A stretch of 64,000 bases of DNA from Brachyspira murdochii DSM 12563. GTDB lineage: Bacteria; Spirochaetota; Brachyspiria; Brachyspirales; Brachyspiraceae. The translations under genes were made by a program, and so were the position numbers. The notes below the pieces were generated by a model. That model was given only the letters and a program-made list of their open reading frames with translations, ran no database searches and was not told the origin of the DNA. The stretch covers positions 2,293,510 through 2,357,509 of the forward strand of contig NC_014150.1 of NCBI RefSeq assembly GCF_000092845.1, given 5' to 3'. Below, in pieces: positions 35,120-39,149 of the stretch (the first letter of the stretch is position 1; every line of letters begins with the position of its first letter).

Positions 35120-35458
35120 TTATATATTTTCTTTTAATAAACTTATTATCTCTTCTTTGCTTAATACCTTTCCATATGAAAGCACTTTATCATCTAAAAC
35201 TAAAGCAGGTGTTGACATTACACCATAAGAAGCTATTTCAGCCATATCCTCTACATACTGAACTATCAAATCTAGTTTAGCCTCTTCAATAGCAGCTATT
35301 ACATTTTCTTCTAATTTTTGACAGTTAGAGCATCCAGTTCCAAGTATTTTTACTCTAGCCTCTACAGGGGACTCTTTATTTGTTTCCTCTTCACCGAAGA
35401 GATTAATGGCAGGTCCTCAGCCGCAGTTTCCGCCGAAAAAAAGATCTTTTAATGACAT
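35120..35458 (-). CDS. Putative selenoprotein: thioredoxin-fold protein with N-terminal C-G-U motif
   Basis: Read from the ATG at 35458, which has AAGGAG 7 bases upstream, the frame gives MSLKDLFFGGNCG, then TGA at 35419-35417, then GPAINLFGEEE, and stays open to TAA at 35120. The total is 112 aa if TGA is Sec14. The body is a small-redox-disulfide-protein/thioredoxin-like domain with active site GTGCSNCQKL (~40-50) and cis-Pro region MSTPALVLDD. Its Cys paralogue (36099-36386) has NCCCGG where this has NCGUG. No alternative start after the TGA has a ribosome site. A stem-loop fitting a bacterial SECIS follows the TGA. A pseudogene or a sequencing error is the alternative. Confidence 0.75.
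35387..35419 (-). promoter_or_regulatory. Putative bacterial SECIS stem-loop
   Basis: On the minus strand, 21 nt after the TGA (35419-35417), stem CTCTTC (35401-35396) pairs perfectly with GAAGAG (35392-35387) around loop GGT, with a possible seventh U-G pair. Bacterial SECIS rules ask for an apical loop about 16-37 nt from UGA with G in the first two loop positions. Both are met. Confidence 0.6.
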
Positions 35459-35632: not shown

Positions 35633-35947
35633 TTATAATTTTTCTTTTAAAATATTTATTATTGTTTCTTTACTTAATACCTCACCATATGATACAAGCT
35701 CATCATTAACAATAAGTGCAGGCAAAGTCATAACTCCGTAATATGACATACTCCCCTTACTTTCTGTAAATTTTATAGATAAATCCAAATCCAAATCTAA
35801 TATAGCATTTCTGATATTGCTAAGCATATTTAATGAAGCATCATCATCATTTCTGCCTAATAATAATATTTTTTCTATTTCTCTTTCCTCATCTTCTAGA
35901 GGATCAGGCAAACAGCCTCAGCCGAATTCTATATTTTTTTTAATCAT
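35633..35947 (-). CDS. Putative selenoprotein: thioredoxin-fold paralogue with N-terminal U-G-C and no CxxC
   Basis: From the ATG at 35947 the frame reads MIKKNIEFG, then TGA at 35920-35918, then GCLPDPLEDEE, and stays open to 35633, giving 104 aa with Sec10. C-terminal blocks (YYGVMTLPALIVNDELVSYG, LSKETIINILKEKL) match the two neighbours. In contrast the thioredoxin CxxC is replaced by LGRNDDDASL, so the only redox pair would be Sec10-Gly-Cys12. AAAGGG lies 13 bases before the ATG, a rather long spacing. A 5-bp stem (TCCTC/GAGGA, 8-nt loop) starts about 19 nt after the TGA and is a weak SECIS candidate. A TTG at 35911 just after the TGA is the alternative start. Confidence 0.65.
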
Positions 35948-36042
35948 AATTTTTTAAATACCCTTTAATTCATAATTTCTAAATACATAATATAGGTATA
36001 TTGAAATAATTGCAAATTTAAAATTAAAAAAATAATACAAAA

Positions 36043-36098: not shown

Positions 36099-36386
36099 TT
36101 ATTTTACTTTATCTTTTAATAAAGCGATGATTTCATCTTTTGTAAGCACTTTTCCATATGATAATACTTTTTCATCAAGCACCAAAGCAGGAGTTGACAT
36201 TACACCGTAAGAAGCTATTTGTGCCATATCCTGTACATGTCCGACACTTAAATCAATACCAATTTCTTTTACAGCTTCTAAAGCATTTTTCTCAAGTTTT
36301 TGGCAGTTTGAACAGCCGCTTCCTAATATTTTAATTCTAGCATTTGATGATGAACCACCACAGCAGCAATTTTTTTCTGATGACAT
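36099..36386 (-). CDS. Small thioredoxin-like redox-active disulfide protein (Cys form)
   Basis: A 95-aa thioredoxin-fold protein of the redox-active disulfide protein 2 type. The active site is GSGCSNCQKL (~residues 22-31), the cis-Pro loop is VMSTPALVLDEK, and a Cys-rich N-terminus reads KNCCCGGSSS. Such proteins often adjoin UPF0718/ArsP permeases and are thought to supply thiols or bind the metalloid. It follows the permease gene by 40 bp on the same strand. It is the all-cysteine relative of the two UGA-containing genes downstream and shows what residue the UGA replaces. AAGGAG precedes the ATG. Confidence 0.9.
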   Translation of the reverse strand: MSSEKNCCCGGSSSNARIKILGSGCSNCQKLEKNALEAVKEIGIDLSVGHVQDMAQIASYGVMSTPALVLDEKVLSYGKVLTKDEIIALLKDKVK

Positions 36387-36426: not shown

Positions 36427-37437
36427 TTATACAAATAGAAAATAAAAATTATTAAATAAATATCCAATAATTATTATTCCTAAAGTTACTATACCCACAA
36501 AAAGAACAAGAAGCTGTATTTTTACTACCTTTTTTATCATAATAATTGACGGAAGTGATAAAGCAGTAACCGCCATCATAAATGATAAAATAGTTCCTAT
36601 TCCAGCACCTTTATAAAATAAACTTTCAGCTACTGGAAGAGTACCAAATATATCTGCATACATTGGTATACCAACCAAAGTTGCTAAAGGAACAGAATAC
36701 CAATTATTTTTTCCTAGTACAGTATTTATCCATGCTTCTGGTATAACATTATGTATAAAAGCTCCTATTCCAACTCCTATAAAAATATATAAATAAACTT
36801 TTTTTATAGTCTGCATTACCTGATTTTTTGAGTATATAATTCTATCTTTTTTTGTCATAGTCTGTATTTCTACATCTGCATTTGATTTTATATTTTTAAC
36901 AAAATCTTCTAAATATCTTTCCATTTTTAGTTTGCCTATTAAAGTACCTCCTACAACAGCAAGTACAAGCCCTACAATAACATAAGCTATAGCTATTTTC
37001 ATTCCAAACACACTTGATAAAAGTATTAAAGAAGCCAAATCTACAAGAGGTGAAGATATTAAAAAAGAAAATGTCATAGAAATAGGTATGCCAGCAGAGG
37101 TAAATCCTATAAATAAAGGTATTGAAGAGCATGAACAAAATGGAGTAACCGTTCCGAAAAGTGCTGCTAATATATTTGCTGATATTCCATTAAATCTGCT
37201 TAATATTTTTTTGGTTCTCTCTGGAGGAAAATAGCTTTGAATATATGATATACAAAATATGAGTACAGATAAAAGTACAAATATTTTTATAACATCATAA
37301 ATAAAAAACTGTATTACTCCCTTCATTGTTTCTGATAGGGCAAAATTATTTAATATATTGCCTATCAATGTATTGAGCCATTTCATAGATATTATCTGAT
37401 CCTGTATAAAAACAAATATTGATTTTATAACTAACAT
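36427..37437 (-). CDS. Permease of the UPF0718/ArsP family
   Basis: A 336-aa inner-membrane protein with about eight to ten hydrophobic helices. The diagnostic block is FGTVTPFCSCSSIPLFIGF (~residues 95-113) followed by GIPISMTFSFLISSPLVD, and a second repeat-like block is in the C-terminal half (GIPMYADIFGTLPVAESLF). Family members include the organoarsenical exporter ArsP; many others are unassigned. The ars context supports export of an arsenic or related metalloid compound. A soluble hydrophilic loop lies near residues 170-200. It is flanked by the Acr3 gene and the thioredoxin-like genes. Confidence 0.88.
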   Translation of the reverse strand: MLVIKSIFVFIQDQIISMKWLNTLIGNILNNFALSETMKGVIQFFIYDVIKIFVLLSVLIFCISYIQSYFPPERTKKILSRFNGISANILAALFGTVTPFCSCSSIPLFIGFTSAGIPISMTFSFLISSPLVDLASLILLSSVFGMKIAIAYVIVGLVLAVVGGTLIGKLKMERYLEDFVKNIKSNADVEIQTMTKKDRIIYSKNQVMQTIKKVYLYIFIGVGIGAFIHNVIPEAWINTVLGKNNWYSVPLATLVGIPMYADIFGTLPVAESLFYKGAGIGTILSFMMAVTALSLPSIIMIKKVVKIQLLVLFVGIVTLGIIIIGYLFNNFYFLFV

Positions 37438-37574: not shown

Positions 37575-38637
37575 TTAATTTTTAAATTTATTTTTTGTTG
37601 CATTTGCTATTTTTACAAGGGTGAGCATTACAGGTACTTCTACTAATACTCCTACAATAGTAGCAAGAGCAGCTCCAGAATTAACTCCGAATAATGATAC
37701 AGCCACAGCAACGGCAAGCTCGAAGAAGTTGGAAGCTCCTATCATAGCAGCAGGAGATGCTATATTATGGAGGAAGTTTTAATAAATAAGCTGCAATATA
37801 AGCTATGAAAAATATTAAAAAAGTTTGTAATATTAAAGGTATTGCTATTAGAATTATGTGTAAAGGATTTGATAATATAATGTTTCCCTGAAAGCTAAAT
37901 AATAGTATTAATGTTAATAATAATCCTATCACTGTTATATTATCAAATTTATGTACAAAAATATTATTGAAATATTCTGTCCCTTTTTTAGTGCATACAT
38001 AAACTCTTGTGGCGATTCCCGCTATTAGCGGTATAAGTACAAACAATACCACAGATAAAAATAGTGTATCCCAAGGTACTGTAACATTTGATATACCTAA
38101 TAAGAATTTTACTATAGGAACAAATGCTATGAGTATTATTAAATCATTGGTTGCTACCTGAACAACAGTATATGATGGATTTCCTTTTGTTAAAGCACTC
38201 CATACAAATACCATAGCAGTACAAGGAGCAGCCCCCAAAAGCACAGCACCTGTCAAATATTCTTTTGCTAAATCCTCAGGTATTATATTATTTAATATAG
38301 TATAGAAAAAGAAAGATGATATAAAAAACATAGTAAAAGGTTTGATAAGCCAATTTACAGCCCAAGTTAAAAAAATACCATTCGGATTTTTGGTAACGTT
38401 TTTTATGCTTTGAAAATCTACACTCATCATCATAGGGTATATCATAAGCCATATTAATACGGCTATTGGTATTGATACATTTGCATATTCAAATTTATTT
38501 AATGTGTTTGGTATTACCTGTAAAAATTTTGATATTAATACCCCTATAATCATACATATAAATACCCACAATGTTAAATATTTCTGAAAAAAACTTATAT
38601 TTTCTTTTTTTTCATCATTATTATTCATATTATCCAT
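37575..38637 (-). pseudogene. Acr3-family arsenite exporter gene, frameshifted
   Basis: Acr3 exports arsenite. The first ORF (38637 to 37765, 290 aa) has the N-terminal helices and the conserved GAAPCTAMVFVWS block (Cys139). It then meets a stop after KLPP. From about 37769 the +1 shifted frame continues without stops to 37575 as [21 protein letters not shown] and [21 protein letters not shown], which is the expected Acr3 C-terminus with the functional Glu. One extra C in the CCTCC run near 37769-37775 would explain it. If the base is real the exporter lacks its last two helices. If it is a sequence error the gene is intact. Confidence 0.85.
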
Positions 38638-38655: not shown

Positions 38656-38979
38656 TTATTTTTCGCATTTGCATTTTGATGTGCTTTCATCATTTTTATC
38701 TGATACTATAGTTGTATAATAGCTTAATAATTTTTCTGCATTTTTTATTCCTTCTTCATTAAAACTATAATAAGTCCATTTGCCTTCTTTTCTTCCTACT
38801 ACAATATTTGAATCGCAGAGTATTTTCATATGATGTGATAGTGTAGACTGTACTATATGTAATTCTTCCAAAAGTTTGCATGCACATATTTCACCATCTT
38901 TAATCATTTCTAATATTTTTAATCTATTTTCATCGCATAGTGCTTTGAATACTATTGAATTATTTTTATAATCTTGCAT
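38656..38979 (-). CDS. arsR: ArsR-family arsenic-responsive repressor
   Basis: A 107-aa ArsR/SmtB winged-helix repressor. The metal-binding element is GEICACKLLEEL (~29-40), close to the ELCVCDL of ArsR, and the recognition helix is QSTLSHHMKIL (~45-55). An additional C-terminal SKCKCEK may add thiol ligands. It is the first gene of the minus-strand ars cluster, 18 bp ahead of acr3, with a palindromic operator at its promoter. It presumably releases DNA on binding As(III). Confidence 0.93.
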   Translation of the reverse strand: MQDYKNNSIVFKALCDENRLKILEMIKDGEICACKLLEELHIVQSTLSHHMKILCDSNIVVGRKEGKWTYYSFNEEGIKNAEKLLSYYTTIVSDKNDESTSKCKCEK

Positions 38980-39013
38980 TTAGTCTCCTGTATTATTTTT
39001 TATTTACTGCAAA

Positions 39014-39065
39014 CATATCGAAATATATCGATATATAGTATAGCAAACATATCGATAATTGTCAA
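39014..39065 (-). promoter_or_regulatory. ars promoter with ArsR-type operator
   Basis: On the minus strand, TTGACA (39065-39060), a 17-bp spacer and TATACT (39042-39037) form a near-consensus promoter. Repeats of ATATCGA-type half-sites occur at 39014-39036 (containing the palindrome ATATATCGATATAT) and at 39048-39057, flanking and overlapping the -10 region. Confidence 0.75.
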
Positions 39066-39149
39066 TGTGTTTTATTATTATTTTATTGAAAAAATAAGAT
39101 ATAATGATATAATTTATCACTAATATATAAGATATGGAGCTTTATAAAT

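Follow-up and report, generated by a model that had tools for sequence, protein, structure and literature searches.

A predicted thioredoxin-like selenoprotein with a U-G-C tail and without CxxC in a three-gene cluster beside arsenic-type genes of Brachyspira murdochii

The window analysed here, a stretch of 64,000 nucleotides of the Brachyspira murdochii DSM 12563 genome (NC_014150.1, positions 2,293,510 to 2,357,509), carries three clustered thioredoxin-like genes on the minus strand, together with genes for an ArsP_1 family permease, an ACR3 arsenite transporter and an ArsR/SmtB family regulator (Table 1). The middle gene of the cluster, Sec.1, starts with the ATG at 35947, has an in-frame UGA as codon 10 (35920-35918) followed by GGC TGT, and remains open to 35633. 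On readthrough the product begins with MIKKNIEFGUGCLPDPLEDE..., and LGRNDDDASL stands where the neighbouring proteins have CxxC. The frame with its sequence and translation and the replacement of CxxC agreed with the first-pass annotation of this DNA, as did the AAAGGG site (35966-35961) 13 nt from the ATG and the hairpin of 5 bp with an 8-nt loop at 35903-35886. In many relatives, GGAGG is located 6 nt upstream of the Sec.1 ATG. The product matched PF13192 (Thioredoxin_3, Pfam) over residues 40-101 with 37 bits (cut-off 24.8), while the TIGR00412 model (MTH895/ArsE) gave 40.5 bits, under its curated cut-off of 62.

Table 1. Features of the Sec.1 locus and its surroundings (positions within the window).
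Feature	Position	Strand	Remarks
Sec.2 thioredoxin-like selenoprotein gene	35120..35458	-	C-G-U, CxxC intact; UGA 35419-35417; hairpin about 35402-35386
Sec.1 thioredoxin-like selenoprotein gene	35633..35947	-	104 residues, UxC tail, without CxxC
Sec.1 SECIS-type hairpin, UCCUC-UAGAAGAU-GAGGA	35886..35903	-	5 bp, 8-nt loop; starts 14 nt after UGA
UGA codon 10 of Sec.1, predicted selenocysteine	35918..35920	-	UGA kept in 23/23 orthologues
AAAGGG, weak ribosome-binding site	35961..35966	-	13 nt upstream of ATG 35947
Promoter-like element TTGCAA...ATATACCTATATTATGTAT upstream of Sec.1	35983..36015	-	core in 23/23 upstream regions, small variations; putative function
Cys paralogue (third gene)	36099..36386	-	CCCGG tail, CxxC; UGA instead in four other genomes
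ArsP_1 family permease	36427..37437	-	PF03773, 217 bits
ACR3 arsenite transporter	37765..38637 (wider span 37577-38637)	-	TIGR00832; frame broken before C-terminus
ArsR/SmtB family regulator	38656..38979	-	PF01022, NF033788

The Secmarker paper of 2017 (PMC5330540; section 'A novel selenoprotein family' and Fig 7) described three clustered PF13192 genes in the Brachyspira genomes analysed there: two UGA genes with candidate SECIS elements in both, one of them a 'Sec.1' without CXXC, and one Cys copy per genome. The finding of Sec.1 is therefore real but already known. The genus, the three-gene PF13192 cluster, the UGA in an N-terminal extension and the loss of CXXC are common to the published protein and the present one, and the larger genome set used here confirmed the described Sec.1 as real and makes its predicted function testable. 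This set differs from the published description in its variable gene content and in the UGA found in the third copy of four genomes. The other details added here are the compensatory SECIS changes, the mirrored tail, a probably ancestral CxC, the conserved upstream element and the arsR-acr3-arsP setting. In two reviews (PMC9312934 and PMC13188914), the entry 'Thioredoxin-like selenoprotein Sec.1' is given as CxU and that for 'Sec.2' as UxC; these labels seem to be exchanged with respect to the 2017 text, and the CxxC-less protein of this locus is UxC. Gene callers halting at UGA truncate or miss genes of the Sec.1 type, as also pointed out in PMC5330540.

The genome of B. murdochii, a 3.24-Mb single contig, has a tRNA-Sec scoring 60.2 bits (threshold 47), which is adjoined on the same strand by the selA ORF and then selB. 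Here selB and selD were assigned with TIGR00475 and TIGR00476, respectively, and selA by reading of the ORF between tRNA-Sec and selB. SelB was above the cut-off in all 26 genomes of the genus and tRNA-Sec above the threshold in 25 of them, the exception (G021) being an incomplete assembly.

Orthologues of Sec.1 were present in 23 of the 26 genomes of Brachyspira, a genus of gut spirochaetes, with protein identities of 62-95%, the closest named relatives being Brachyspira innocens (95%) and Brachyspira sp. G79 (94%). TGA was located at the same codon in 23/23 of them, and none had TAA, TAG, TGC or TGT at this position. The F-G-U-G-C motif around the UGA is invariant, and the ATG is likewise kept in all orthologues, often behind GGAGG. 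CxxC is absent from all 23 of them. The pN/pS ratio for codons 2-9, before the UGA, was 0.54 in frame and rose to 1.83 and 5.55 when the frame was shifted, with variable sites at seven of the eight third positions and at three of the eight first and three of the eight second positions. For the nine codons past the UGA, the ratio was 0.17 in frame versus 1.10 and 2.19. The UGA might instead be a true stop, with the protein beginning at the TTG at 35911, from which a 92-residue frame is open, and with the nine upstream codons being a leader peptide or noise. This codon is indeed TTG in 13 orthologues and ATG in 2, but it is TTA in 7 and TCT in 1, and these 8 of 23 exclude a conserved start there. 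The in-frame constraint before the UGA, the upstream ATG with its frequent GGAGG, the invariance of FG-U-GC without any TAA or TAG, and the paired hairpin described below also stand against a true stop, which we regard as extremely improbable; initiation downstream of the UGA was rejected on the codon and constraint evidence. The annotation had held that the UGA is hardly a chance stop, and its retention in every orthologue together with the upstream constraint bore this out. Neither of the contrary findings it had named, a lack of Sec machinery or initiation after the UGA with unconserved codons upstream, was made: the machinery is present, the upstream codons are conserved and the later start is not. 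From these comparisons, the UGA of Sec.1 is almost certainly read through as selenocysteine.

No Sec.1 was found outside Brachyspira, all 14 loci detected in the species-genome collection belonging to this genus. The homologues inspected outside the genus keep CxxC and have tails with Cys or no tail, and the non-genus match G311 has TGA solely at the end of its frame. As a separate observation, Sec.1 of G009 is cut by an early TAG (L054:4986-5273), by either decay or sequencing error.

The hairpin following the UGA was examined in an alignment of 23 sequences, 16 of which are distinct. RNAalifold recovered, unprompted, exactly the structure proposed in the annotation, with all alignment cells paired and both outer pairs seen as C-G, U-A and U-G, indicating compensatory changes. 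The percentage paired and the covariation score were equalled by 0/500 shuffles, and slid controls showed 51-73% pairing, where the counts come from related sequences and the events are not independent. The stability of the hairpin was unusually high relative to randomly drawn synonymous codings of this peptide (median p of 0.03 across the 23 genomes), with non-significant results in G018 and G002 and borderline ones in several other genomes. The hairpin of Sec.2 was also fully paired in RNAalifold and nearly invariant, and the comparative support for a SECIS element is therefore better for Sec.1 than for Sec.2, the reverse of the ranking given in the annotation. The third paralogue has a hairpin (CCUUC-AGUU-GAAGG) in its UGA copies and mostly none at this place in its Cys copies; against recoding, this hairpin alone was non-significant (p about 0.37).

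Exchange between Sec and Cys, which the annotation had suggested looking for, was not seen at the UGA position of Sec.1 in any of the 23 orthologues but was found in the third paralogue, within the tail homologous to that of Sec.1. The corresponding codon of this paralogue is Cys in 14 genomes tested and UGA in G002, G011, G014 and G020, where the copies read SCGU (L049:5798-6124, L052:4073-4399, L055:5520-5837 and L060:4323-4640). When the family is aligned, Sec in Sec.1 is matched by Cys in Sec.2 and vice versa, giving UxC in one protein and CxU in the other. Most of the Spirochaetota homologues inspected beyond the genus keep CxxC and have Cys-rich tails such as ACSCGGSC and CCCNCNC. Because Cys homologues in other Spirochaetota carry tails of the CSCGG or CCCNC type, the N-terminal CxC/CxU/UxC tail looks ancestral, and Sec.1 would therefore have lost the CxxC of its domain rather than relocated a pair.

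All three paralogues occur in 16 of the 26 genomes, only Sec.1 and Sec.2 in 5, only Sec.1 and the third gene in 2 (G014 and G018), a lone Sec.2-like gene in 1, and no paralogue in 2. Every genome having Sec.1 also has at least one CxxC paralogue. The element upstream of Sec.1 is retained even where the adjoining genes differ, and in several relatives it has inverted arms (ATATAC...GTATAT). Its core has a single exact site genome-wide, and its matches with two mismatches numbered 10 against 5 in a reversed control; as this is not far above the control, no regulon is claimed, and a role as a genome-wide operator was discarded. With this conserved element and its usual location directly 5' of Sec.2, Sec.1 could be thought of as a translated regulator, in which selenium-dependent readthrough of the UGA is coupled to Sec.2 expression and the protein itself matters little. 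However, the entire domain is conserved as protein far past the UGA, the order of Sec.1 and Sec.2 is inverted in G002 and G020, and the two genomes with Sec.1 and the third gene only lack Sec.2, which makes such a regulator very improbable. A frameshift close to the end of Sec.2 in G002 (L052:4522-4818) reflects decay or a sequencing error.

An AlphaFold model of Sec.1, built from the family alignment with Cys replacing Sec, gave a thioredoxin fold with pLDDT of about 95 over most of residues 26-104, and the fold is thus retained without CxxC, a point that the annotation had raised for checking. The N-terminus containing U10 and C12 was disordered in the model. The annotation had described U-G-C as a pair moved to a flexible N-terminus; the flexible tail agrees with the model, but the move does not agree with a CxC tail of ancestral appearance. 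The top PDB match of the model in Foldseek was MTH895 (1ilo), with an E-value of 1.4e-3 and a TM-score of 0.75 by target length. The C-terminal domain of Sec.1 thus resembles MTH895/ArsE (TIGR00412) in both fold and sequence, whereas Sec.1 differs from it in the absence of CxxC, the score below the family cut-off and the extra N-terminal tail with selenocysteine. Taken together, we consider Sec.1, with a probability of roughly 0.7, to be a selenoprotein of a PF13192 cluster of the MTH895/ArsE type ('redox-active disulfide protein 2'), in which a SECIS-guided Sec10 forms part of a mobile U-G-C that might exchange with CxxC paralogues.

For this reading, SelB and tRNA-Sec would decode the UGA at codon 10 as selenocysteine, guided by the hairpin 14 nt downstream, and the resulting Sec-Gly-Cys would sit on the disordered N-terminal tail of a complete thioredoxin fold lacking CxxC. 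The U-G-C may form a reversible selenenylsulfide or may bind a soft metalloid or a thiol-bound substrate, and it could be reduced or exchanged by the CxxC-bearing Sec.2 or Cys paralogue. Having lost CxxC and retained the G-V-M-T-L-P (cis-Pro-type) loop, the domain might act as a docking platform. The tail probably acts in thiol or metalloid chemistry on behalf of a CxxC paralogue, while the specific mechanism by selenenylsulfide or metalloid with exchange by CxxC paralogues is proposed tentatively.

The genes adjoining the cluster bear on the kind of chemistry. In most genomes the cluster lies directly after arsR and arsP, and neighbours of the arsR-acr3-arsP kind suggest thiol chemistry involving arsenic or soft metals. 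Members of the same protein family were reported beside arsenic-resistance-type genes in ars operons elsewhere (PMC2963123); those instances had CcdA, thioredoxin and mostly ArsC, and the account of them there does not mention selenocysteine. A literature search for ArsE, ArsF and ArsG yielded no more than a passing mention. These neighbours and the reported ars operons argue against regarding Sec.1 as a general redox selenoprotein, acting for example on peroxide or in protein selenenylsulfide/disulfide exchange, with the ars genes being incidental. Such a general role is nevertheless a serious possibility, somewhat short of an even chance, as Sec.1 and Sec.2 have their own upstream element and are also retained in genomes whose arsP is missing, broken or far away. 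Five pilosicoli-type genomes have the Sec.1-Sec.2 pair away from the arsP block, with intervening genes in the 4 examined; G017 keeps both genes with a mere remnant of arsP, and arsP is broken in G010. The loss or distance of arsP in genomes keeping Sec.1 argues against a strict partnership with arsP. Both genomes without the cluster also lack a close arsP orthologue, one of them (G003) being a fragmented assembly. A more specific proposal is that Sec.1 is a non-catalytic thioredoxin-fold carrier that uses its mobile selenol-thiol tail to move a substrate or metalloid to the CxxC paralogues and the ArsP-type permease, in a mirrored-Sec/Cys relay of two to three selenoproteins; this we consider unlikely.

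The open frame of acr3 in B. murdochii has 296 codons, versus 348-361 in most of the relatives having acr3. G021 likewise has a split frame, no acr3 match was obtained at the locus in several genomes, and intact copies are found in the genus. The region before arsR (38980-39100, minus strand) contains repeated stretches of the CGATAT type, a possible ArsR-type operator.
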